From a virus: a stretch of 37,428 bases of DNA. Made by a program: the position numbers and the translations under genes. This document shows, piece after piece, positions 1 to 33,818 of this stretch (its first letter is position 1; each line of letters starts with the position of its first letter). Under the pieces are notes generated by a model. That model did not search any database. It saw only the letters and a list, made by a program, of their open reading frames with translations, and was not told the DNA's origin. The stretch lies in the IMG/VR virus record IMGVR_UViG_3300008448_000265, positions 1-37,428 of that record; one strand, given 5' to 3'.

Positions 1-315
1 ATCTTCTTGTGGTTGAGGTTCTGGTAATTTGATATCATTCATATCAACTATCTTAGCATCAATTTTGATGTTTGCGTAGTCAATAATTGGATAAGCGTCA
101 GTTACCATTTGAGCGGCTACCATTTCAAGTTCATCACGATATCCATCTTCAGCAGCAACAATTTCTTGTAATAATGCCGATGAACGCATCATTGATTGCA
201 TCAATGATTTATTACCAAGCATTGAACGCAAAGATTCACCTGACTTGCCTTTTAAGGAAGCCATTGTTTTAGGTGAAAATATCTTGTCGTATTCTACTTC
301 AGTTAAACGTCCCAT
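1..315 (-). CDS. Hypothetical phage protein, 3' end outside the window
   Basis: Partial gene. The minus-strand frame opens with ATG at 315-313 and runs through the left edge without a stop, giving 105 visible residues that begin MGRLTEVEYDKIFSPKTM. The visible part is rich in Met, Ser and Leu in a helical stretch (about residues 30-60, with MQSMMRSSALLQEIVAAE), then more acidic and hydrophobic. The ATG directly abuts the TAA stop of the upstream gene (TAAATG), which points to translational coupling and supports this start. It is the last visible gene of the putative virion-cargo operon, so a head or prohead role is possible. I do not recognise the family. Confidence 0.75.
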   Translation of the reverse strand, partial: MGRLTEVEYDKIFSPKTMASLKGKSGESLRSMLGNKSLMQSMMRSSALLQEIVAAEDGYRDELEMVAAQMVTDAYPIIDYANIKIDAKIVDMNDIKLPEPQPQED

Positions 316-567
316 TTATTTTTTAGATTGAAATCTTTTAACAATTCTGTCAAGCATTTCTTCCTCATTTAAACCTTCTGCCTTTGGTTTTGGTTTAACT
401 TCAGGATTGCCTAATGGACGACGTGGCTTTGGTTTTTCACCTGGTTTGCCTGGTGCCACTGCTGGTCCTGGTTTTTCAGATGGTTTACTAGGAGCTGTTG
501 CAGGTCCTTCTGCAAGTACCTTTTCTATAGCTTCACGAATTGCTTGTTTTAATTCAGTATGTGTCAT
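316..567 (-). CDS. Small Pro/Lys-rich phage protein with candidate prohead-protease sites
   Basis: An 83-aa protein. The N-terminus is a short amphipathic helix (MTHTELKQAIREAIEKVLAE) ending in L-A-E followed by Gly at residues 18-21. A low-complexity linker of PSKPSEKPG-type repeats follows (about residues 24-62), then an acidic/basic tail with a second L-N-E at about residues 66-69. The N-terminal helix resembles the start of the 120-aa protein at 28360-28722. A helix ending in LxE|small residue fits T4-like capsid-targeting or scaffold peptides cut by gp21-type proteases; that role is inferred. The gene sits between the 878-aa protein and the partial gene at the window edge, with spacing of 0-2 bp. 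No enzymatic motif is visible. Confidence 0.7.
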   Translation of the reverse strand: MTHTELKQAIREAIEKVLAEGPATAPSKPSEKPGPAVAPGKPGEKPKPRRPLGNPEVKPKPKAEGLNEEEMLDRIVKRFQSKK

Positions 568-568
568 A

Positions 569-3205
569 CTATTTATTTAAATGTTGTCTTAATAATTTTT
601 TAAATTCAACTACGTGTTGAGGATAAGATTCAAAATATTCATTTACAAGGTAACGATGAACCTCTGCCAAATTACGTTGTTGTAACGCTTGTAGTAAATC
701 AGATGGTGAATTAAGTGGTAACATCACATTACCATTTTCATTTCCTGTAAGTAAATAGTTTCTATTACCTGGTTGTACATTAATAGATGCTACAATTTGT
801 TGATTTGCTAATCGGATGATGTAAATTTTACTGCCGCTTGGGAGTGAAACTACTTGTCCTACTCTACCTCTATTACCTAATTGGTTATTACGACGAGCAG
901 CACCTCTATCACCATTTGGATCAACACGAGAAGCATTTTGCACAGATAATCTTCTATAATCAGCTCTTGGTAAACGCATAAATGCTGTTTCTAATCCTGT
1001 TTCTCTCATTCTTTCAAACACGTTAATATCACCACCACCACCTGCTGCTGGTTGATCTGCTGCTGGTCTATTAGCTACACCTGCTGGTCTTCCTCTTCTA
1101 CCTGCTGTAGGGGCTGCTATTGCTGCCGCTGCTTGTCCACCTAACAATTGTCTTGCTAATGATGAAGGTACATTTGCTTTAACTAATTTACCTGATTGAT
1201 CAGATATTTTAAAGCTTTCTCTTGGATTAGCTGTATTAATAAGTAATGCTGTTTGGCCATTCATAGCAGGTTTTAATCTACTACTATTATCAATCGGAGG
1301 ATTTGATTGAATAAATCCTACTTTAGATTGACCATTCATTGAATATCCTTGATTACCTAATAATGTTCTTAAATCAGATTCAGTAAACACTTTATTAACT
1401 GCTCTTAAATAAGCAAAATATGATGCCCATTGAGTAGCATCTAAGTTATTACTAGTATCTCTACTTCTCCAATCATCTCTTCTACCATACCCGTAATCAA
1501 CAATTGATCTTTGTTGACGAGGATTAACATCAGCTGGCATTAAGAAAAATGAAGGTGATGATGTTCCTTCAGTAGCTGTAGTTAATACTACTGCTGTTGA
1601 ATCTCCTGCTGATATTGTTCTTTGACTATAAGGAATAGCATTTATAACAGATTTTAGAGCATCTTTATCTATAGTTGAAGGGATATTATCATTTACTTTA
1701 AATAAATTTAAAGCGTTTTGTTGGAATGATTCATTATCTTTAGCACCAGCAAATACTTGCTGTACTTCTTCATTATCGAAAGGTATAGGAACTATACCAC
1801 CATTTTTATCTACTTTGTATGAAGAAAATGAATTTGAATCTAATATTACTTCTCCATCTTCTACAGTTTTAACTATTAATGCAGAATCAGAATTATTTTT
1901 AGCACCGTCAATTACAGTAGTAATTACACTTCTATCAATTACTTCATCACCAGCTAATTTAACTAAATTTCTTAAAGGAATTTTATCTAATTCTGGGTAA
2001 TCAAGTAAATATTTTGATGTACGTTTGTTTAGTTTAATGTTAGGGAAATCATCATCAGCTTGGTATAAACCAACTTCTATATTATCTCCTAATTTTATTT
2101 TAACTATAGTACTACCGTCTTTAGTGATGTATAATCTTTCAACATTTCTAGTATCCCATTTATCCAATTGTACTAAAAGTTTTTTTACATCAAATGAAAA
2201 AGTTTCAGTTGAAAGATATTTTGTATTAATCTTTTCTTGAATATTTGCTGTAATAGATCTTCTAACTTGATTTGGAAATTTATCTAAATGTTTTAGTAAA
2301 ACTATATTATCAATTATACCAGGAGTTTCAGCTACAAATTTAGCTAATTCTGGGAATTTAGGTAAGTATTTTTCTACAAACTCTTCTTGATCAACATCTG
2401 AGAATGTTCCGCTACTTTTTCTAACAACTAAATATTGTTGTTTAGCTGAGAAAGGTAATTTAGACCATTCTCTATATGATATAGCACTTCCTCTATACTG
2501 CTGAGTAAATTTTTCTGCTGTTGATAACGGAATATATTTTAAAATAGATTTAATGTTTGGTACTTCTCTTAACCAAGGAATTTCACTCATCAAATCTTCA
2601 AAACTCATTGAATTAGATTCGTATGGGGAGTTTTGTCTATTTGTATAAACGTATCTACTATTTTCACGAGTTTTTTGAGGATCTCTAACTTGAATAGCAA
2701 CAAAACTTAATTTATCACTATCTGATATATTGCTGTTTTTTGCTAAGTAGAATGTTGGATATCCTTTACTTTCACTGTAACGATAACTAGAAAATGATGA
2801 TCTAGTAATACACCATTTTTCTCCACTACCGTATCTAATACAGTTATCTTCTTTACTACCATTATAAATAACAATAGTATTATTTTCATTATGATATACT
2901 ACATCAGGTGTAATATCTATTTCTTCAGCAGCTTCATCACCTTTAGTTGAAGTAACTAATTTAATAAATTTAGATAAAGTCCATTTACTTAAATCTCTTT
3001 GATCATTAGGTAATTTTTCCTTAATGCGATCAAAGGTCTTAATATAAGCTCTTAACTGATCGTCTGTAATATTGATATTAAGATCATCAGCTTCTTCTTT
3101 GAATTTTTTAATAAAACCTTGTACAGCTTTTTCACTATAGGCTTCATTAAGTTCATTTTTCCAATTATGGACAACGTGTAATATAAATTTATCTATCGCT
3201 CTCAT
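569..3205 (-). CDS. Large putative capsid-packaged phage protein with WCI motif
   Basis: An 878-aa protein from the start at 3205. A longer frame reaches an ATG at 3313, but that start overlaps the upstream gene by about 107 bp, whereas ATG 3205 lies 1 bp after that gene's TAG stop. From this start residues 1-22 form an amphipathic segment ending ELNE|A, which matches the (L/I)xE|A prohead-protease pattern seen in the neighbours. At about residues 125-155 is a YGSGEKWCITRS...PTFYLAKN block; I recall similar 'KWCI' blocks in large T4-like phage proteins of unknown function. A long middle region lacks recognisable motifs. An Ala/Gly/Pro-rich linker (about 680-735) separates a basic C-terminal domain. 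Function unknown; an internal virion or ejected protein is inferred. Confidence 0.75.
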   Translation of the reverse strand: MRAIDKFILHVVHNWKNELNEAYSEKAVQGFIKKFKEEADDLNINITDDQLRAYIKTFDRIKEKLPNDQRDLSKWTLSKFIKLVTSTKGDEAAEEIDITPDVVYHNENNTIVIYNGSKEDNCIRYGSGEKWCITRSSFSSYRYSESKGYPTFYLAKNSNISDSDKLSFVAIQVRDPQKTRENSRYVYTNRQNSPYESNSMSFEDLMSEIPWLREVPNIKSILKYIPLSTAEKFTQQYRGSAISYREWSKLPFSAKQQYLVVRKSSGTFSDVDQEEFVEKYLPKFPELAKFVAETPGIIDNIVLLKHLDKFPNQVRRSITANIQEKINTKYLSTETFSFDVKKLLVQLDKWDTRNVERLYITKDGSTIVKIKLGDNIEVGLYQADDDFPNIKLNKRTSKYLLDYPELDKIPLRNLVKLAGDEVIDRSVITTVIDGAKNNSDSALIVKTVEDGEVILDSNSFSSYKVDKNGGIVPIPFDNEEVQQVFAGAKDNESFQQNALNLFKVNDNIPSTIDKDALKSVINAIPYSQRTISAGDSTAVVLTTATEGTSSPSFFLMPADVNPRQQRSIVDYGYGRRDDWRSRDTSNNLDATQWASYFAYLRAVNKVFTESDLRTLLGNQGYSMNGQSKVGFIQSNPPIDNSSRLKPAMNGQTALLINTANPRESFKISDQSGKLVKANVPSSLARQLLGGQAAAAIAAPTAGRRGRPAGVANRPAADQPAAGGGGDINVFERMRETGLETAFMRLPRADYRRLSVQNASRVDPNGDRGAARRNNQLGNRGRVGQVVSLPSGSKIYIIRLANQQIVASINVQPGNRNYLLTGNENGNVMLPLNSPSDLLQALQQRNLAEVHRYLVNEYFESYPQHVVEFKKLLRQHLNK

Positions 3206-3206
3206 A

Positions 3207-4019
3207 CTATTTTGTTTTACCCCATGATTTGCCTTTACCTGGGTCTGAACATTGTGAAGGTGTTGGGCGGCAAGAAGGATATTTTGCCCTTGTTTCGCCT
3301 TTTTTACGGCCACAAGGCTTACATTTTTTCTTACCGTCTACCTCGCGACATGTATTACAATCAACCCATCCTCCTGTTTTACCAGGTGCACCTTTGCGTT
3401 TAAACCAGGTGCGGAGGGTTTCTTTTTTTGCTTCGTTCAATACATATTCTTTAAATAAACTATCAGCAAAATCATCAAAAGATGAAAGTCCACCTATTGG
3501 TATACCTGTTTGAGATAGGTTTTGATCTTCAAAACTTTTATATATATTTTTATCTACTATTTCAACATTATTTAATAATTCTTTAGGTATCATAACTTCT
3601 TCACCCTTAACTCCTCCAGGTACAGTATATTTATCAACATTTTCTTGAGGGATATCTATATAAGTTAAAACAGCATTTTGTCCATCTTCATAATATCCAT
3701 AGTAAAAAGGTAAAGCTATTCCTTCTAGTGATGTAGTATAACTTGGATTTTTTTTAACCTCATTAGGTCTATTACCTCTCCACAATCTAATAAATCCCGG
3801 TTTAACTTTTGGTAGTTTTTGAATTATCAAATCAGATAATTGTTTATAATAATTTACAGGTGTTAATTCCTCTTTAATACTTTTCCAAATATTGCCTTTA
3901 CGACAACGTACAATAGCACCTGACTTATAGGCAGATGGCTTATCGTATTTGCGATCAGCAATTCGTTTACAACGATCTTCGTTAAGAATTTCTTTTGCTA
4001 TATCTAATAATTTGATCAT
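3207..4019 (-). CDS. ADP-ribosyltransferase-like phage protein with capsid-targeting peptide and Cys-rich tail
   Basis: A 270-aa multidomain protein. Residues 1-14 (MIKLLDIAKEILNE) resemble a T4-type capsid-targeting peptide ending in L-N-E. Residues 16-46 are a small basic segment (KPSAYKSGAIVRCRKG) of a kind I recall in T4-like marine phages. Residues 74-146 show an R-S-E ADP-ribosyltransferase pattern: RLWRG (Arg81), YTTS (94-97), and GEEVMIP (Glu140/141). After a second L-N-E|A at 194-197 comes a Cys/Lys-rich domain (CNTC...CKPCG...YPSC...C, residues 221-257) that probably binds zinc. T4 Alt is a packaged, gp21-processed, injected ADP-ribosyltransferase, so the combination is coherent. 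The ART assignment rests on short motifs and could be wrong; a structure prediction would decide. Confidence 0.65.
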   Translation of the reverse strand: MIKLLDIAKEILNEDRCKRIADRKYDKPSAYKSGAIVRCRKGNIWKSIKEELTPVNYYKQLSDLIIQKLPKVKPGFIRLWRGNRPNEVKKNPSYTTSLEGIALPFYYGYYEDGQNAVLTYIDIPQENVDKYTVPGGVKGEEVMIPKELLNNVEIVDKNIYKSFEDQNLSQTGIPIGGLSSFDDFADSLFKEYVLNEAKKETLRTWFKRKGAPGKTGGWVDCNTCREVDGKKKCKPCGRKKGETRAKYPSCRPTPSQCSDPGKGKSWGKTK

Positions 4020-4020
4020 A

Positions 4021-4404
4021 TTACCATTTTCTACAAGACCAGTATCTTGCTTTAGTACGTGGTCCTGGGTTAGCGCAATTATGTCTTGCTCTAAAGGCGG
4101 CGCGACGTTTAGGATTATTTTTCTTAATATTCATTCCCTTAGCACCAAAGTTAACCTTTACAACTTTACCTGTTTTAGGATTTTTAACATATACCTTAAA
4201 CTTCTTACTATCACCACGCATTGGTTTACCTAAAGGTACTGTACGGCCTTGGTATTTGGCTTCTAACATGCAATCGCAATCAGCTTCATTTAATTCCTGC
4301 TGATACTCTTCCATAAATTGAACAAACTCTAGAATGTCTTGTTCATTCTCGACGTCATATTCATCAATTTCGTCTTCGTTTAATAATTCAATTAATTTAA
4401 TCAT
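4021..4404 (-). CDS. Small basic phage protein with capsid-targeting-like N-terminus
   Basis: A 127-aa protein. The start MIKLIELLNE|DE resembles the T4 Alt leader and ends in L-N-E at residues 8-10. An acidic segment follows, then L-N-E|A at 38-41 and M-L-E|A at 46-49. The C-terminal 75 residues are strongly basic: KKFKVYVKNPKTGKVVKVNFG, then RRAAFRARHNC and KARYWSCRKW with two cysteines. I recall this basic C-terminal block as a recurrent domain in T4-like marine phages, without a defined function. The acidic propeptide and basic core suggest a protein that binds DNA once the propeptide is removed by the prohead protease, as with T4 internal proteins. That role is inferred. The 2-bp gap to the next gene suggests co-translation. 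Confidence 0.72.
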   Translation of the reverse strand: MIKLIELLNEDEIDEYDVENEQDILEFVQFMEEYQQELNEADCDCMLEAKYQGRTVPLGKPMRGDSKKFKVYVKNPKTGKVVKVNFGAKGMNIKKNNPKRRAAFRARHNCANPGPRTKARYWSCRKW

Positions 4405-4411
4405 AGTTTAT

Positions 4412-4642
4412 TTATTTTTCGTGCCACCAATTGCAGCAATATTCATCAGCAGGATAAGGAATTTCTTCAACTCCATCATGCCATTTTAACCAATATTTGT
4501 TATTACATTTATTACCATCAGCAACCCAATATTCACAATTAGCACACATTGAACCGCCTTTAGTTACGCGCATTCCTGGTTTATGATCAGCTGAGTATTC
4601 TGCTGGTCCTTCTTTAAGAATAAGTTCTGATAACTTTATCAT
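4412..4642 (-). CDS. Small Cys/Trp-rich metal-binding-like protein with capsid-targeting-like N-terminus
   Basis: A 76-aa protein. It begins MIKLSELILKE|GPAEYS, so L-K-E|G occurs at residues 9-12, parallel to the neighbouring cargo candidates. The rest carries five cysteines: MCANCEYW (C-x2-C), a single C in NKCNN, and YCCNWW near the end, plus several Trp and His residues. The pattern suggests a small Zn- or Fe-S-binding fold; a high-potential iron-sulfur-like domain is one possibility, but I cannot decide which metal is bound. The start overlaps the stop of the upstream gene by 4 bp (ATGA type), so the two are translationally coupled. Confidence 0.7.
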   Translation of the reverse strand: MIKLSELILKEGPAEYSADHKPGMRVTKGGSMCANCEYWVADGNKCNNKYWLKWHDGVEEIPYPADEYCCNWWHEK

Positions 4643-4920
4643 AAACTAGCACGATTAGTTAGGTATTTAATTTCGGTTCTTAGAGATGCTACCTCAGATA
4701 CTAATTCAAGTATTTGTGCACGCATTTCATCTTTTTCTTTACCAGCTTCAGCTAATAAAGCTTCTAATTTTGAAATACGATCTTTACAATCGTGGCGAAT
4801 AAACTCTTCATCACGTTCTTTGCGCATTGACTTTTTTTCATAAAATCTAAACGCAGCAGCACTACCAAGAACGGTGATAGCAGTCATTACAACTGTGTAT
4901 ATATTGTCTGTAGTATTCAT
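4639..4920 (-). CDS. Small single-span membrane protein with coiled coil
   Basis: A 93-aa protein with one hydrophobic segment near the N-terminus (about residues 7-27, YTVVMTAITVLGSAAAFRFY), then a charged heptad-rich region (about 30-90) that should form a coiled coil. The layout would suit an inner-membrane spanin-like or holin-accessory protein, or a small virion membrane protein; nothing in the sequence settles this. It lies between the zinc-ribbon protein and the Cys/Trp-rich protein, with a 4-bp overlap downstream. It lacks the MIKL leader of its neighbours, although LLAE|A occurs in the coiled coil, which may be chance. Function unassigned. Confidence 0.68.
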   Translation of the reverse strand: MNTTDNIYTVVMTAITVLGSAAAFRFYEKKSMRKERDEEFIRHDCKDRISKLEALLAEAGKEKDEMRAQILELVSEVASLRTEIKYLTNRASL

Positions 4921-4931
4921 AATAATAAATA

Positions 4932-5516
4932 TCAGAATTGGGTTATGTTCTTCACCTTTTCAATATATTCTTTAAATTCCTGAACCATTGTTTTATCGTC
5001 TCCTCCACTCCATACTTCTGTTTCACCATTTTCATTTACGATATGTTCTGAAGTGGTATCATTGATCATGTCTTCTAATATTTGTTCTAGATCATTAACA
5101 TAACTAGACGCGTTTCGTTGTACCATGTTTTTAACATAGTCTTCATATTTACCTTCAAGACGTAATTTAGTCTCCATTTTAATAACACAATCAAAACACT
5201 GTTTGTGGATTGAGTACATTTTGGAATCTAAATTCTTTTTCTTCATTGCTTTACCACAATTAGGGCATGTTAATGGAATTTGTAGTGATTTTTTAACTAA
5301 ATCAAGTTTTGAAATAGTCATTTTAATACCATTCTTTATAGTCCACTGCTTACCATTTTCTTCCCAAACATCACCTTCTTTATGATCAATGAATTCTTTA
5401 GTATAACCTACCTGGGTGGTGGTTTTATCACCGTATTTTTTATTAACTATATTTCTTATTCGTTGTACATCTCTTTCTCGAAACTCTTTTTTCAAAACAC
5501 TTTCGTTACCTGTCAT
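4932..5516 (-). CDS. Zinc-ribbon phage protein of unknown function
   Basis: A 194-aa protein. The N-terminal part (FRERDVQRIRNIVNKKYGD, residues 12-30, then EGDVWEENGKQWTIKNG) is followed by a four-cysteine zinc ribbon: CPNC at 84-87 and CFDC at 107-110. A helical acidic C-terminus completes it. I recall proteins with this arrangement as conserved in T4-like marine phages, without a known function. No capsid-targeting leader is visible, unlike most neighbours. Its ATG overlaps the TGA of... the upstream fusion gene, with a shared 4-bp ATGA (5513-5516), so it is probably co-expressed with that gene. A nucleic-acid-binding or assembly role is possible but not shown by the sequence. Confidence 0.72.
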   Translation of the reverse strand: MTGNESVLKKEFRERDVQRIRNIVNKKYGDKTTTQVGYTKEFIDHKEGDVWEENGKQWTIKNGIKMTISKLDLVKKSLQIPLTCPNCGKAMKKKNLDSKMYSIHKQCFDCVIKMETKLRLEGKYEDYVKNMVQRNASSYVNDLEQILEDMINDTTSEHIVNENGETEVWSGGDDKTMVQEFKEYIEKVKNITQF

Positions 5517-6910
5517 AAACCTAGTTCTTTTAGTTTTTCGATAGTGTTTGAAGCTGATGTATGATGTATTCCAATACCACCTGCTTCATTCCATCTTTGA
5601 ATATTATCTTTTCTATCATCAATTAAAATTGATTTAGGAGAAGCGTATAATTGTTTTTGGTCTGCTGATTTTAAAATTAAAGGTACATTAGGTAAATTTT
5701 GTTCTACCCATTTTTCCTTACCAGTTCTAGATGATTTTTCTCTTGAAGGTGCAGATAATAACTTTGGAGAATATGATTCAATGTAGCTCCATAATTCTTT
5801 TCCATCAGGCATCCATTCTAAATTAACCCAAAAACTTTCACCAGCATCAGAAAGTGGTTGCCAAAAATCAGCATCACCTTTAATGTGTTGTCCTCTAATA
5901 CTTTTACCAGTTAAATCTTCATATCCTTTTTCAAAATCAACTAGTACACCATCCATATCACAATAAATTTTATATTGTGGTTGATTTTCTTTAGCTTCAA
6001 AAATCATTGGATTTATTTGTGCAAATTTTCTCATTATTTGTCCTGCCTTAGCATTTGCTTCATTCTCAGTATCTGAACCTGTGGTTCCGTCTAAAGGTTG
6101 ACCGTTTTGTTTTTGTTTTAAATGTACTAATTCGTGTGAAACAGTTCGGCAGACATCAGCCATGTTGCGGTTACCAACATATATCCATATCTTATCGTCT
6201 TGTGGGTTATACAATCCCATCGACTTCATTTCCCTCGCTTTCTCCGTATCCCTACTTATCACTATCCTACCCCCCATTCCCTTAATCCCTAACTCTCGTA
6301 GGGTGAATTTAATGAATTCTTTTAATAAATCCAAGTTTTCTTTACCTTCTTTTAAAGGTTCTTCTTCTACCGTATCTTCCATTTCATATCCCGCTGCGTT
6401 CATGAAGTCTTTTACATCAATCCCGTTTGGTAGAAACTGTTGAATTAAATCAGCCTTTTTTGATTTTATAGCAATTCTAAATTGTGTAGCATTCACACCA
6501 CTAAAATTACCAGCATCAAATAATTCAGCATTTTTGTATTTTTCATTTTTTAAAATAGCTGAAAAACGAGTAAATTCATCTTTACCAAATGCAGCAACAA
6601 TTTTAGCGTCTGGATTTGAAGTAATTAGGTCATATGTTTCACGTACAGGATTTTCATCTACTACTAAGAAATTAACATTCCCTGGTAATAATGTTTTATA
6701 TAATTCCCATACTTTATAACTTTCATCAGCAGTAATTCCCTCACGTGTTTTAGGTGAGATAAATACTTGCACCTCATCACATATATCAGCAAGTCTTCTG
6801 ACTACATCAAAGTGTCCTTTGTGTGGTGGTTTGAATGCACCTGGAAATACACCAATCGTGTATTGTTCTGCTTCTAATATTTGGTGTGCTATGTATTGAC
6901 CTAAATTCAT
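5513..6910 (-). CDS. Nucleotidyltransferase / HExxH peptidase-like / HAD nucleotidase fusion, putative polyprotein
   Basis: A 465-aa three-domain fusion. Residues 16-175 are a cytidylyltransferase-like/NMN adenylyltransferase-like domain: FPGAFKPPHKGH (HxGH at 30-33) and SGVNATQFR (137-145, the ISxTxxR position). Residues 195-300 hold HELVH (259-263) with ENEANAKAG (282-290) supplying a likely third zinc ligand, as in phage zinc metallopeptidase-like domains. Residues 312-465 are a HAD-type 5'-nucleotidase-like domain: DMDGVLVDF (Asp318/320), LLSAPS, and ILIDDRKDN (Asp431/432). The N-terminus ends I-L-E|A (13/14), and L-K-E|G (188/189) and I-F-E|A (305/306) fall in the two linkers, suggesting cleavage into three proteins. 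Substrates are unknown; NAD or nucleotide metabolism is inferred. Four-base overlaps with both neighbours indicate tight coupling. Confidence 0.8.
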   Translation of the reverse strand: MNLGQYIAHQILEAEQYTIGVFPGAFKPPHKGHFDVVRRLADICDEVQVFISPKTREGITADESYKVWELYKTLLPGNVNFLVVDENPVRETYDLITSNPDAKIVAAFGKDEFTRFSAILKNEKYKNAELFDAGNFSGVNATQFRIAIKSKKADLIQQFLPNGIDVKDFMNAAGYEMEDTVEEEPLKEGKENLDLLKEFIKFTLRELGIKGMGGRIVISRDTEKAREMKSMGLYNPQDDKIWIYVGNRNMADVCRTVSHELVHLKQKQNGQPLDGTTGSDTENEANAKAGQIMRKFAQINPMIFEAKENQPQYKIYCDMDGVLVDFEKGYEDLTGKSIRGQHIKGDADFWQPLSDAGESFWVNLEWMPDGKELWSYIESYSPKLLSAPSREKSSRTGKEKWVEQNLPNVPLILKSADQKQLYASPKSILIDDRKDNIQRWNEAGGIGIHHTSASNTIEKLKELGL

Positions 6911-7743
6911 TTTGATGTAAATTCTTTAACTTTTGAAATAACTTCTTGCTCAGATAAAGCAGATTCTTTAATTTTAGAATCTATATTAATAAATTCTCGT
7001 TCTAATTGAGAAATTAGTTGTTTAAATTGTTCTCTTGATTTTTCTGCGGCTTTAGCTTTTTTAGCTTGCTCATCAGGTGATAAAGGTGTATCTGATGTTT
7101 TACGGAACGTTGATGAAAACTGCTCAGGGTTACTTTTAGTCAATTCGTCTAACCATTCATATAGTTTTCCTTGTTGAACAGCTTGATTAAATCCATCAAT
7201 TTCCTTTTGATATTCTTCATCTGGAGCTTGATATAACACAAAATTATCTCCCAATTTATTTTTATAAGTATCTATATTACCATATACACTATTCCACGTT
7301 GATATAACACCTATTTTAGGTACTTTACGTTCACGTTTAAAATTACGTAAAAATGACACAATAGGGTGGGCATAAACCATTATCATCATTTTATCATAAC
7401 CTTCTATATTCAAAATACCAGGAGTTTCTTTGCGCTTATAAACGCCTCCTACCATTTTAGCTGCGTTAGATGCTGTTGTATCCCAAATAAATGCTCTACC
7501 TTGTGATATAGCTTGAGGAACATCAACATCATCAACCTGCATTGAAGCCTGAGTTAAACTATTGTACATTGGACTATCCTTATCCTCAACATATTTGTCT
7601 GGATTTATAATCTCAAAACCAGGTGCAGCACTTTTAATTTTATTAATTAATGTGCTTTTACCAGCCCCGGCGCCTCCTGCCATGATTATCATTTTATTTT
7701 TAGGAGTGGCTACTTCTAGTAACAAGTCTATTAGTTTAATCAT
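6907..7743 (-). CDS. P-loop kinase (zeta-toxin/polynucleotide-kinase-like) with capsid-targeting-like N-terminus
   Basis: A 278-aa protein from ATG 7743. An in-frame ATG at 7782 exists, but it would place the start inside the hairpin at 7757-7785 and add 13 residues ahead of MIKLIDLLLE|VATP; the shorter start gives the same leader as the neighbouring cargo genes. The Walker A motif GGAGAGKST is at 23-31, followed by INPDKYVED (46-54) and AFIWDTTASN (84-93), an arrangement typical of zeta-toxin-like and polynucleotide-kinase-like P-loop phosphotransferases. The C-terminus is a charged helical tail with a further L-S-E site. It probably phosphorylates a nucleotide, nucleic acid or sugar nucleotide; the substrate cannot be read from the sequence. 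A 4-bp overlap couples it to the fusion gene. Confidence 0.78.
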   Translation of the reverse strand: MIKLIDLLLEVATPKNKMIIMAGGAGAGKSTLINKIKSAAPGFEIINPDKYVEDKDSPMYNSLTQASMQVDDVDVPQAISQGRAFIWDTTASNAAKMVGGVYKRKETPGILNIEGYDKMMIMVYAHPIVSFLRNFKRERKVPKIGVISTWNSVYGNIDTYKNKLGDNFVLYQAPDEEYQKEIDGFNQAVQQGKLYEWLDELTKSNPEQFSSTFRKTSDTPLSPDEQAKKAKAAEKSREQFKQLISQLEREFINIDSKIKESALSEQEVISKVKEFTSK

Positions 7744-7806: not shown

Positions 7807-10800
7807 TTATCTACCGAAGGTATAGCGAATACCTAACTGAGCTGTCCATACATCAAATACTGATGAATTGTATTGGTATGTATCTTTTGCTAAGTAAGTA
7901 CCACTAGCATCACGTTGAGTAGCTAATCTATATGTTGGAACACCTGCAGCATCTCTGCTAACAAAGTTCAACAATTGAGGAGCTGTTGCGCGTTGTGAAA
8001 CACCCCACTCATTATTCAACATATTACCAAAGTTTAAGATATCTGCTCTGATTTGGAAAGCATTGCGTTTACCTTTAATTTTGATAAATACATCTTGTGC
8101 TACTGAGAAATCAAATCTATGTAGCATAGGAAGTGCTAAAGCGTTTCTTTCAGCATATTGACCTCTACGAGTTGATAAATAAGGATCTTGATCAATAAAG
8201 GCATCAAATGCAGCTTGTTGTTGAGCCTCAGTATAAACTGTAGTACCAACTGTTAAAGATGCAAAACGAATATCTGTAGCTTTATTTGGTACAAATACTA
8301 AATCATTATTTGATACTCTATCACCATTTAAGTCACCGGCTACGATATAAGAGAATGGATTGTTTTGTGAACCTACATATCCTAATGTAAATGTAGTAGC
8401 ACCACCATATTTCTTACCATAGTCTAAACGGTATCCTAATAAACCTACGATACGATTTCTAACTAAGAATGATGAAGTAGTTAAACCTAAATTATTATTA
8501 CCATTAACTGATAACGCTGACTGCCAAGAACCACTAGCAATTGAACCGGCGTCCATAAAATCTTGTGCGTTTGCAGCTGTATAAGCTACATAACCCCAAA
8601 TACCTTTAGATGCTGGTTTTTCTAGTTTGAATGTTGCTGAACGATTAAAGGCACCATTTTTATTTGTTAAAACAGCAGCCATTGAAACGTTGTTATTTAC
8701 TCTTACAGTAGCATCAGTACCACCATAAAGATCTCTATTATCAACACCACCTAATTTACCAACTGGTGATTTTAAGTTAGCATTGTAATAATGAACTGCG
8801 TTAAGTGTTTTGTTGTACAATAATTCAACACTAGCAATTAAACCTAACCAAGGTAATTTTTGATCAACAGCAATGTTATTTTTCCAAACTTGTGGAAACT
8901 TATAATTAGGGTCTGTTAATGCTAAATCAAATGTAGATGGTAAGGTTGGAGTTGATGGGATAAAGTATTGATTTGGATTAGCAGTAAAACCATAAGCGGC
9001 GGCTGCAGCACCTGATACATCAATAAATCCTGACAACACACCAGTATTCCCAATTTGGTTAGATAAGAATACATAAGGAGGACGACCTGTAAAAATACCT
9101 GTACCACCTCTAACTTGTGTTTTGCTTTCACCTTTATGGTTGTAATTAAATCCGAAACGAGGTTCGAATAATAATTGGCTTTCTGGCATTACACCTGTAT
9201 TCCATTTTTCACCATTAGCAAAAGTCATAGCAGTAACTGCTTGGTTTTCTAATGCTGTATTAGCGATTGAAATAATATTTGCTCTAATACCTGCTGTTAA
9301 TTTTAAATTCTTACTTACGCTATATTCATCTTGTAAATATAAATCTGTTCTATAAGATTCTAAAGTTTGCATTGGAGCAACTCCACCTGGTAATGCTGAA
9401 TATCTTAATTGAAAGCGAGCAGGAGCAAATGTAGATGGTTTACTACCATTAGCTAATGATTGATTTGCTGCTGTGTAAAAATCTGCTAGGCTATTAAAGA
9501 TATAAACACCGTTTGATGCAGGGAAGAATAAGTTGTTAGATTGATATTGTTGGAAATTAAATCCACCAACTAATGTATGTTTACCTAAATACTTAGTTAA
9601 GTTATTGGTAACGTTAAATGTCCAATAATTTAATTTGTTATCTGGAGTAAATGGATCGAAACCTACAGAAGTGTAAGTTGCTGAACCATCTCTGATGTCA
9701 ATAGTAGGGAACATATTACTCATATAAGCTCTATCTTCAATTTGCTTATCGTAAGAAACGATTAAGTTATTGTATAAAGTGTTAGAGATTTTAGAGTTTA
9801 ATTCTAATACTGCTGAACGAGTGTTATCCATAATAATATAACCACTATTTTGGAATGACATAGCATTAAACTGAGTTGTTCTATTACCCGCCCCTGCTGA
9901 TTGAGAGTTTGAAATATTAATTTCTGCAGATGAGTTGTGATGAACATAACGAGCAGTTAATTTATTCTTGTCGTTGATATTCCAGTCAGCGCGAATCAAA
10001 AATTTCTTTGATGAATTTTGATTTGAATAACCTTCCCAAGGACCAGTTGTATAATCAAATTTTTCTTTCATAAACTTAGATAAAGCTTCCATATCGGAAT
10101 ACTTTACACGAGATATTTGAGTACCTGTAAGTGGAGATCCTGCTGAAATCCAAGTTGTACCTGGTTCTGTTCTAACAATACCTTCGTAGTTACCAAATAA
10201 AAATAATTTGTTTTTAACAACAGGTAAGCCTAATCTAAAACCTTGTACTTTTTCATCAAATTTAGCTGCAGTAACTGTAGTACCACGTGCATTATCACCT
10301 ACATAACGAGATGAATTATCACGTTGTGTTTGATAAACACTACCTTCAATTTCATTTGTACCTGATCTTGTAACAGCGTTAATACCAGCACCTGTAAATC
10401 CAGATTGACGAATGTCAAATGGTGCTACGTTAACCTGTAATTGATCAATCGCGTCAAGTGAAATTGCTGAAGCGCCTGTACGGCCACCTGCTGCTGCTGA
10501 AGAGCCTAAACCGAAGTTGTTGTTGAACTGAGATCCATCGATTGTAAAATTGTTCAAACGAGAATCTTGTGCACCAAAAGAACTACCATTACCAAATGGA
10601 TTGTACTTAGTAATTCCATCGATTGTTCTTGCACCTGTGATTGGAATAGAAGTTAATTCTCTTCTTCCAAACTGTTGTGCAGCACCAGTTTTTCCTTTAG
10701 AAAAGATGTTGTTGCGAGTACCATTAACAACTACTTCTTTAAGAGCTGTTGCTTCATCTACTAAAACGAAATCAACATTAGATGTAATACCTAATTGTGT

Positions 10801-11079
10801 GTTGATTTCACTTGCTTCACTTTTCTTATATCCAACATAGGAAACGTGAATTGTGTACGGACCACCTACTCTAATAGCAGGAAATACGAATACACCTGTC
10901 TTACTTGTCTGGGCCTTGTACTCAGTGCCCGTCGGAACGTGGATAGCATGGATCGTTGCTCCAGCTAACACTTCTTGCTTCTCATTCTTAACAACACCCG
11001 AAATAGAGGAAGTGGTAATCTGACCAAATCCAACCAAGGCGAATGCAGAAAGAAGTAACGATAAAATCGCTTTTTTCAT
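7807..11079 (-). CDS. Oar-like TonB-dependent outer-membrane receptor
   Basis: A 1090-aa protein of the usual size for Bacteroidetes Oar/TonB-dependent receptors with an N-terminal carboxypeptidase-regulatory-like domain. Residues 1-19 are a signal peptide (MKKAILSLLLSAFALVGFG). About 25-105 is the beta-sandwich domain (SISGVVKNEKQEVLAGATI...). ALKEVVVNGTRN (about 110) leads into the plug (about 115-235). The remainder is a long beta-barrel ending LGIRYTFGR, a typical outer-membrane C-terminus. It would sit in the host outer membrane and, with TonB, transport or bind an unknown ligand; Myxococcus Oar is linked to protease export. It appears intact. It is embedded between phage genes in the same orientation and bounded by hairpins, which suggests a moron acquired from a host. 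Confidence 0.9.
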   Translation of the reverse strand: MKKAILSLLLSAFALVGFGQITTSSISGVVKNEKQEVLAGATIHAIHVPTGTEYKAQTSKTGVFVFPAIRVGGPYTIHVSYVGYKKSEASEINTQLGITSNVDFVLVDEATALKEVVVNGTRNNIFSKGKTGAAQQFGRRELTSIPITGARTIDGITKYNPFGNGSSFGAQDSRLNNFTIDGSQFNNNFGLGSSAAAGGRTGASAISLDAIDQLQVNVAPFDIRQSGFTGAGINAVTRSGTNEIEGSVYQTQRDNSSRYVGDNARGTTVTAAKFDEKVQGFRLGLPVVKNKLFLFGNYEGIVRTEPGTTWISAGSPLTGTQISRVKYSDMEALSKFMKEKFDYTTGPWEGYSNQNSSKKFLIRADWNINDKNKLTARYVHHNSSAEINISNSQSAGAGNRTTQFNAMSFQNSGYIIMDNTRSAVLELNSKISNTLYNNLIVSYDKQIEDRAYMSNMFPTIDIRDGSATYTSVGFDPFTPDNKLNYWTFNVTNNLTKYLGKHTLVGGFNFQQYQSNNLFFPASNGVYIFNSLADFYTAANQSLANGSKPSTFAPARFQLRYSALPGGVAPMQTLESYRTDLYLQDEYSVSKNLKLTAGIRANIISIANTALENQAVTAMTFANGEKWNTGVMPESQLLFEPRFGFNYNHKGESKTQVRGGTGIFTGRPPYVFLSNQIGNTGVLSGFIDVSGAAAAAYGFTANPNQYFIPSTPTLPSTFDLALTDPNYKFPQVWKNNIAVDQKLPWLGLIASVELLYNKTLNAVHYYNANLKSPVGKLGGVDNRDLYGGTDATVRVNNNVSMAAVLTNKNGAFNRSATFKLEKPASKGIWGYVAYTAANAQDFMDAGSIASGSWQSALSVNGNNNLGLTTSSFLVRNRIVGLLGYRLDYGKKYGGATTFTLGYVGSQNNPFSYIVAGDLNGDRVSNNDLVFVPNKATDIRFASLTVGTTVYTEAQQQAAFDAFIDQDPYLSTRRGQYAERNALALPMLHRFDFSVAQDVFIKIKGKRNAFQIRADILNFGNMLNNEWGVSQRATAPQLLNFVSRDAAGVPTYRLATQRDASGTYLAKDTYQYNSSVFDVWTAQLGIRYTFGR

Positions 11080-27950: not shown

Positions 27951-28360
27951 TATTCAAAATTGATTTGTATTTCATCAGCTTCTCCTGATATTTTCATACT
28001 ATATTCAACTTTCACGTTTACATAGTTTTGATCTGGTTCAGGAGTAATAATTACATTTTCTAAATTTATTTCAGGTATAAATGTTTCTACCCCAACTCTT
28101 ATATTATTATTAATTTTACTAATATTATCTTCATTAATAAAATCAAATATAGATTTTTTTATATCACAACCAAACTCAGGATTTTCAACTCTTTCTCCTT
28201 TATTAGTTAATAAAAGATTAATTAAGTTATATTTAACCTGTTCTTTAGTACTATACGTACTTTTAAAAGCAGAAGGCTTACTGAAAGGAATGCTAAGACC
28301 AATTGCAATGTTTTTTTGCAAGTCTCTAGGATCTACACGATATATTCTGGGTGTAGGCAT
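27950..28360 (-). CDS. Baseplate wedge subunit, gp25-like
   Basis: A 136-aa protein of the gp25/lysozyme-like baseplate family. The core VKYNLINLLLTNKGERVENPEFGCDIKKSIFDF (about residues 42-74) carries the conserved 'L-l-TnkGER...PeFG' signature. The acidic C-terminus (VNVKVEYSMKISGEADEIQI) is the usual beta-strand end. gp25-type proteins sit in the wedge and contact the sheath; the family is shared by T4-like phages and type VI secretion (TssE). Single-base overlaps couple it to the upstream 120-aa gene and the downstream gp6-like gene. Confidence 0.92.
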   Translation of the reverse strand: MPTPRIYRVDPRDLQKNIAIGLSIPFSKPSAFKSTYSTKEQVKYNLINLLLTNKGERVENPEFGCDIKKSIFDFINEDNISKINNNIRVGVETFIPEINLENVIITPEPDQNYVNVKVEYSMKISGEADEIQINFE

Positions 28361-28722
28361 TACTCTCCACCTCCTGACATCATCTGTCTCATTTCAGATG
28401 GGCTTAAACTAGCAGCAGTATCATTGATAAATGCTGCAAATGGGTTATCACTTGTTGGGTTTACTTTTAAGGCTTGTTGGGGTTTTTGGCCACCAGGCAA
28501 ACCAAACATTTCAGCCATTCTATTACTCATTTGTGCTTTCATACCAACACTATGTACATCCCCACTATCAAATGATAATGTTCGACTTTCGTTTATTGGT
28601 TGTTGGTTTTGTGTAGCACTGTTACCACTTTTCAATTGTTCAAGCAACATTAAGCCGATTTCTTCACGAACGGCTTCACGTACTGCTTCTTTAATTAGTG
28701 TTTTAAATTGTTTTGCTTCCAT
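28360..28722 (-). CDS. Small virion-like protein with amphipathic N-terminal helix
   Basis: A 120-aa protein. The N-terminus (MEAKQFKTLIKEAVREAVRE) is a charged amphipathic helix like those at the start of the 83-aa protein at 316-567 and in the middle of the 203-aa protein at 33207-33818. It holds an I-K-E|A match at residues 10-13. The remainder is low in structure and rich in Gln, Ser and Gly, ending SPSEMRQMMSGGGE. It sits between the coiled-coil membrane protein and gp25-like genes. A role as a packaged peptide or baseplate accessory is possible; neither is demonstrated. Confidence 0.65.
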   Translation of the reverse strand: MEAKQFKTLIKEAVREAVREEIGLMLLEQLKSGNSATQNQQPINESRTLSFDSGDVHSVGMKAQMSNRMAEMFGLPGGQKPQQALKVNPTSDNPFAAFINDTAASLSPSEMRQMMSGGGE

Positions 28723-33206: not shown

Positions 33207-33818
33207 TTAGATCTTAACGTCAGGAGTGTTAGCACCGTATCCAGCACCAGTAGCTCTGTCCATAGCACCTCTGAAAGATTGAGCAGCTAATTTTTCTAAT
33301 GTTTTAGGATCAGGAACTTCTTTACCAGCAGCTTTAAATTTAGCTATTAACTCTTTTTTAGCAGCGTTAATACCAGCTCTAGCAATACCGAATGCAGTAC
33401 CAACTAAAGCACTGAATCCACCAATTGCTTGAATAGCATCCATAACTGCAGGATCTACTTCATTTAATTGCTCAGACTCGTCAATTTTTTCTTTCTTATC
33501 TTCATCTTTTACTTTTTTCTTTTCAGCTAAGATGCTTTGTAATTCTTGACGAACCATTTCTTTTAATTCGTCTTTAGTCATTTTTTTCTTATTTTCCATG
33601 TCGCTTAATTGATTTATTGCGGGTGATTGGTTTAAAATTGAATCTATTTTTTCTATTAGATTAGGATCATCTGTATTTAACTCAAAATAGCTAACTACTT
33701 CTTCTCCTTTTAATTCGGTTTTGTTTTTCAAATCATTCGAACTAACTTTAACTCCTAACTTTTCTAATCGGTTTAGGAATGCTGCTTTGTCTTCAGATTT
33801 AATTTTATATATTGCCAT
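33207..33818 (-). CDS. Putative virion internal protein with LNE site and hydrophobic C-terminal segment
   Basis: A 203-aa protein. Residues 1-75 form a small domain (MAIYKIKSEDKAAFLNRLEKLGVKV). About 75-118 are Lys/Glu-rich with amphipathic helix (KKMTKDELKEMVRQELQSILAE) and then EQLNE|VDPAVMDAIQAIGG, where L-N-E occurs at 118-120. After that site comes a Gly/Ala-rich hydrophobic helix (GGFSALVGTAFGIARAGINAAKKEL, 133-157) that could insert into a membrane. Cleavage at LNE would release this hydrophobic basic C-terminal peptide, as expected for a capsid peptide ejected with DNA. It is a one-gene transcription unit with an upstream ATATTTAT segment and its own terminator. Confidence 0.7.
   Translation of the reverse strand: MAIYKIKSEDKAAFLNRLEKLGVKVSSNDLKNKTELKGEEVVSYFELNTDDPNLIEKIDSILNQSPAINQLSDMENKKKMTKDELKEMVRQELQSILAEKKKVKDEDKKEKIDESEQLNEVDPAVMDAIQAIGGFSALVGTAFGIARAGINAAKKELIAKFKAAGKEVPDPKTLEKLAAQSFRGAMDRATGAGYGANTPDVKI

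Follow-up and report, generated by a model that had tools for sequence, protein, structure and literature searches.

The internal proteins IPI-III of phage T4 are unrelated to one another, and each opens with an N-terminal propeptide of about 10 residues that ends in (L/I)xE and is associated with a gp21-type protease (MKTYQEFIAE/A; slashes mark the end of the site) (PMC12373910, PMC9958956). This N-terminal leader is all that T4 Ip1-3 have in common, and the type IV restriction enzymes that they inhibit differ (PMC12373910). The leader signal has led to the discovery of many T-even ip genes (Repoila 1994, as cited in PMC12373910). T4 Alt, a packaged ADP-ribosyltransferase (ART), has a short propeptide as well (MELITELFDE). 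From T4 gp24 (MAKINELLRE/S), which is a shell protein and not cargo, gp21 removes exactly the first 10 residues, and T4 gp23 is cut after a 65-residue N-terminal region (PMC9958956). The ejection proteins of giant phages (SPN3US, phiKZ-like) are also head proteins with propeptides cut by the prohead protease, but in SPN3US these are mostly longer than 100 residues (PMC5694885), compared with 10-21 for the leaders described here. Phage-injected proteins encounter host defences before all others, and beyond a few such models they are mostly unknown.

Here we describe a leader, of MIKL type, that we think likely to be a capsid-targeting propeptide of the T4 internal-protein and Alt type, whose cargo would be packed in the head, trimmed by a gp21-type protease and injected. 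It differs from IPI-III in its consensus, in belonging to a distant lineage of Bacteroidota phages and in its far more diverse and often enzymatic cargo, the packaging of which is predicted here. The principle is known from T-even phages, including the discovery of cargo by its leader, whereas the consensus, the lineage and the breadth of cargo appear to be new. A literature search largely confined to non-subscription journals returned no account of a MIKL leader, no capsid targeting described for this lineage and no equal range of cargo.

A gene cluster with N-terminal leaders

The window, meaning the whole 37,428-nt stretch analysed, is the complete IMG/VR record IMGVR_UViG_3300008448_000265 and represents part of the genome of a T4-like myovirus of Bacteroidota. 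The minus strand carries nearly all genes, among them those for the baseplate wedge, an endolysin, a primase and an exonuclease, followed by the leader cluster. Between the window and Flavobacterium phage immuto, the baseplate wedge protein shows 43% identity along its entire length, and the gene order in immuto (primase, exonuclease, cargo-like genes, terminase, portal, prohead protease, core, capsid) matches that of the window. The cluster holds the following features.

6907-7743, minus: 278-aa P-loop kinase (Zeta_toxin/AAA_33-like); leader MIKLIDLLLE/V at 7714-7743
5513-6910, minus: 465-aa NMNAT-like nucleotidyltransferase + metallopeptidase-like + 5'-deoxyribonucleotidase (HAD); leader MNLGQYIAHQILE/A at 6872-6910
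4932-5516, minus: 194-aa conserved protein, no leader; N-terminus MTGNESVLKKEF, kept in relatives, unlike a leader
4639-4920, minus: 93-aa predicted membrane/coiled-coil (holin-like) protein, no leader; phrog_2658 'hol-like', E 3e-8
4412-4642, minus: 76-aa Cys-rich small protein; leader MIKLSELILKE/G at 4610-4642
4021-4404, minus: 127-aa basic protein; leader MIKLIELLNE/D at 4375-4404; phrog_7595, E 1e-12
3207-4019, minus: 270-aa DUF5872-like basic frame with ART-like insert; leader MIKLLDIAKEILNE/D at 3978-4019
569-3205, minus: 878-aa protein, fold without known match; leader MRAIDKFILHVVHNWKNELNE/A at 3143-3205
316-567, minus: 83-aa protein MTHTELKQAIREAIEKVLAE/G, unlikely to be a leader

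An earlier note on this DNA had proposed that the cluster encodes a set of capsid-packaged proteins, four opening with a shared MIKL leader and three others reaching an (L/I)xE site within about 22 residues. All four MIKL leaders (MIKLLDIAKEILNE, MIKLIELLNE, MIKLSELILKE and MIKLIDLLLE) are there, on the minus strand, and the observation is confirmed as real and far above chance, with 4 of the 41 called proteins in the window starting in MIKL against 0.006 expected (P ~7e-11). The sites ELNE/A, VLAE/G and QILE/A are likewise present, ending at residue 21 of the 878-aa, residue 20 of the 83-aa and residue 13 of the 465-aa protein. These three cases need further support because an (L/I)xE within 22 residues is weak when taken alone; it occurs in 31% of 3,396 other proteins, and we rejected it as stand-alone evidence.

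For the 878-aa and 465-aa proteins, that support came from leader swapping. In the homologue of the 878-aa protein at L140:4325, MYRLLDILLE replaces the N-terminus MRAIDKFILHVVHNWKNELNE/AYSEK, and the leader type MNLGQYIAHQILE of the 465-aa protein recurs as MSLGKYIAQFLLE on a different protein (L088:5541). Both proteins thus carry leaders related to the MIKL type. The 465-aa protein matches PHROG 2643 (E 3e-30) and, slightly under cut-off, CTP_transf_like (E 5e-4); leaderless homologues of its domains occur in L165, L187, L169 and L139, and the nucleotidyltransferase and HAD domains are found both with and without leaders. In an AlphaFold model of the 878-aa protein, confidence falls below 50 exactly over residues 1-21 and the chain is ordered from about residue 25 onward, which would fit a removable leader, weakly so because termini are often disordered. 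A fold search with this model gave no PDB match at E<=0.001, and the protein had no match in cultured phages.

The 83-aa protein fared differently. We rejected it as a leader protein, for its entire stretch is fused C-terminally to 878-like proteins in L247, L253 and L171, and its helix probably belongs to a domain. With the 93-aa and 194-aa proteins lacking a leader altogether, the reading of the whole cluster as one leader-bearing set is not supported. Helices like LKEMVRQELQSILAE (IKEAVREAVREEIGLMLLE), resembling the 83-aa protein, also occur in two proteins outside the cluster (28360-28722 and 33207-33818, minus strand), near the N-terminus in one and internally in the other, and are possibly a separate interaction helix.

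Among the proteins with MIKL leaders, the 278-aa kinase scores 30.4 bits against Pfam Zeta_toxin (curated cut-off 22.3), its P-loop follows directly after the leader, and leaders also open its homologues in L191, L187, L137, L160 and others. Relatives of the 76-aa protein bear the leader variants MHSLLELLKLQE/G and MYSLLELLKLQE/G, and relatives of the 127-aa protein keep the basic domain while their N-termini vary. The frame of the 270-aa protein resembles DUF5872 below cut-off (E 4e-5), and its insert (about residues 49-196; window 3435-3887, minus) has ADP-ribosyltransferase-like motifs, RG, an STS-like TTS and GEEV, which are conserved in one homologue group, that of L281. For an R-STS-ExE ART fold, the insert gave no Pfam match and no PDB sequence match, nor did comparison with PDB sequences and cultured phages give a convincing one, and an AlphaFold model built from only two sequences was discarded (pLDDT 39); we call the insert ART-like from its motifs only. 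At the identical insertion site, the DUF5872-like frame holds a different domain in each phage (window 3435-3887, minus; L220:622-1383; L232:3603-4484), and one such insert is also a separate leader protein (L177:3046). In L281 (1345-3641), the ART-like protein stands alone, and it shares another leader with three neighbours (MKWIKLFNKM, MRRIKLFEDF, MKYLKKFNEE, MKYIKRFNEE), which may be a second import tag closer to T4 MKTYQEFIAE. The contigs with L281-type leaders, which are fragments, gave no S77 match.

Enrichment and conservation of the leader in related phages

To avoid circularity, we retrieved relatives through a neighbouring gene without a MIKL leader (window 1-312), which yielded a leader-independent sample of 79; long relatives (G001, 182,846 bases; G002, 173,246; G003, 87,908; G005, 161,982; and others) were also used. 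Genes in relatives are greedy ORF calls whose individual starts may be wrong, but the totals are robust to this because adjoining genes mostly abut or overlap by few bases. In the leader-independent sample, 124 of 1,313 proteins start with MIKL where 0.85 would be expected, and permuted tetrapeptides gave 0-3 at the same loci. An (L/I)xE falls at residues 7-14 in 121 of these 124 proteins, as against 8 of 124 at residues 21-28. The full leader pattern matched 22 times in 12 of the 15 longer leader-independent contigs, with no match for permuted and reversed patterns. The leader is strictly N-terminal: across eight phages, 26 copies of a leader heptapeptide motif stand at N-termini, compared with 5 among ~260,000 internal residues. 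A degenerate DNA pattern for MIKLxD/ExxxE found at least 120 stretches in IMG/VR, compared with 20 for a permuted pattern.

The consensus is M-I-K-L-x-[DE]-[IL]-L-x-E. Over 65 group representatives, M1, I2, K3, L4, L8 and E10 are the sole conserved positions, which are partly imposed by the search; outside the search pattern, an (L/I)xE ending is found in 83 of 89 cases. Where E10 is absent, another (L/I)xE mostly lies within a few residues, as would be expected if the site matters. The residue after the leader E is I or V in 58 of the 124 proteins, but A or S at the sites seen in T4 internal proteins and capsid. Since hydrophobic residues are common after E in the leaders, the true cut may fall at a different nearby E in some proteins.

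Range of cargo behind the leader

Compared without their first 14 residues, 219 leader proteins split into 74 groups that show no similarity to one another. The claim that the leader opens otherwise unrelated proteins, made from four genes, thus extends to at least 74 dissimilar groups with just the leader in common. It is a modular N-terminal element that recombines with the protein bodies behind it. Kinases, HAD phosphatases, one ADP-ribosyltransferase and a possible nuclease are among the cargo. The ART, leader protein L154, matches Pfam ART-PolyVal above cut-off (E 2e-10); matches of others to PBECR3 nuclease, Acb1, zincin peptidase and abhydrolase are weak, below cut-off or unchecked. L154 and the ART-like motifs of the 270-aa insert recall T4 Alt, but leader ARTs have no detectable homology to Alt, and the window's assignment is by motif only.

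ART-PolyVal and several such domain types have been predicted to be injected as parts of the polyvalent proteins of phages and conjugative elements (PMC5512222). Leader cargo shares domain types with these (ART-PolyVal; weakly PBECR and zincin peptidase) but consists mostly of separate single-domain proteins with one leader each. T4 Ip1-3 are a direct precedent for counter-defence cargo. On balance we think it probable that a T4-like Bacteroidota phage lineage loads a large, fast-exchanged arsenal of enzymes and counter-defence proteins (at least 74 groups sampled) through one portable ten-residue tag, with the injected set readable from N-termini. A leader recognisable in sequence would give a named list of candidate injected proteins per genome, in a phage group that is abundant, aquatic and has hardly any cultured members, and might double as a natural tag for directing proteins of choice into the heads of phages.

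A gp21-type protease and likeness to T4 peptides

The prohead protease that packaging of the T4 kind calls for was sought on the window and in its relatives. The window fragment carries none, and by synteny with relatives its head genes lie outside the fragment; a T4 gp21-type protease (Peptidase_S77) is present in syntenic relatives, above cut-off in G001, G002, G003, G005 and G006 and as an annotated gene in immuto. Peptidase_S77 is encoded on 14 of the 24 contigs that bear the leader; in the leader-independent set of 15 relatives it was found in 13. Among the 14 leader contigs with a major capsid gene, 13 have it; in the exception, G029, the capsid gene is close to a contig end that also bears a second, inverted capsid piece (two oppositely oriented pieces, C1:1502-6238), probably a misassembly. 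On the 12 contigs with both leader and protease, every leader match is on the protease strand. Co-occurrence is partly phylogenetic, because protease and leader share a lineage. The capsid proteins of nine relatives have an [LV]xE site near residue 59, mostly followed by A, which matches the site class of the T4 gp23 cut.

We built a position matrix from 60 leaders, with zero T4 sequences in training, and ran it over 270 T4 proteins. T4 gp24 ranks first; alt, taken from its annotated start, is 13th, ipIII 20th, ipII 21st and ipI 126th. The five known N-terminally trimmed T4 proteins give an AUC of 0.87 (p 0.002), a value equalled by 167 of 2,000 column-shuffled matrices (8%); 20 of the 2,000 (1%) place gp24 first. 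The likeness of the leader to T4 peptides therefore seems real but is partly compositional. T4 gene 61.1 (NC_000866 18966-19130), which ranked 13th in a run of the leader matrix, has a start, MKTFKEFIKE/D, that looks like an internal-protein targeting peptide.

Proposed function and alternatives

The modular N-terminal leader, its (L/I)xE ending, its likeness to gp24 and its occurrence in phages with a gp21-type protease argue for packaging of the leader proteins, though not of the whole cluster as a set. We propose that leader proteins would bind the prohead core through a 10-14-residue helix and be enclosed at shell closure; the gp21-type S77 prohead protease would then remove the leader after (L/I)xE, and the mature proteins would stay in the head beside the DNA and enter the cell at infection. 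The leader itself is a portable module, attached to a wide variety of unrelated enzymes and small basic proteins. Points against the proposal are the leaderless homologues of some cargo domains, the frequent I or V after the leader E, the low rank of T4 ipI and the compositional share of the T4 likeness, the location of the protease outside the window, and the lineage common to protease and leader.

The leader might also target the head core on proteins that are structural or scaffold-associated and not injected, a reading that we hold to be unlikely but worth weighing. In G044 the gene of a MIKLLDIIEE protein lies directly between the protease and core genes, and gp24, the best T4 match, belongs to the shell; the recognisable cargo, however, is mostly enzymes (kinases, HAD phosphatases, an ART). 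Somewhat less likely still is docking to another phage or host structure, such as membrane, tail, or a replication or transcription complex. A short amphipathic helix could bind many partners, and some leader genes are distant from head genes (G002:4514, G005:105710), but such docking would leave unexplained the fixed place of the (L/I)xE, the gp21-type protease in the same genome, the match to gp24 and the cargo of types proposed to be injected.

Synonymous codons in the leader vary about as elsewhere and roughly follow genome usage; selection therefore acts on the peptide, and we rejected conservation at the DNA level. It is thus very improbable that the shared 5' end is a cassette for recombination or translation start that gene shuffling has spread and whose peptide has no function. 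Leader and body do recombine freely, and T-even internal-protein loci are described as genomic hotspots of diversity (PMC12373910), but residues are kept while synonymous codons vary freely, and an (L/I)xE persists in leaders where it has moved to another position.

A TonB-receptor-type gene beside the cluster

Next to the cluster (7807-11079, minus), the window encodes a full-length TonB-receptor-type outer-membrane protein inside the phage genome, with Pfam OMP_b-brl_4 (E 2e-46) and a carboxypeptidase-regulatory domain. Its closest bacterial homologues, several from Sediminibacterium/Chitinophagaceae, are 68-69% identical. The host-DNA contamination hinted at by this gene was rejected: phage genes stand on either side of it, and it recurs in the phage contigs L215 (92%; Peptidase_S77 on the same contig) and L200 (80%). 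A decoy receptor, a superinfection block or an uptake gene are possible roles.
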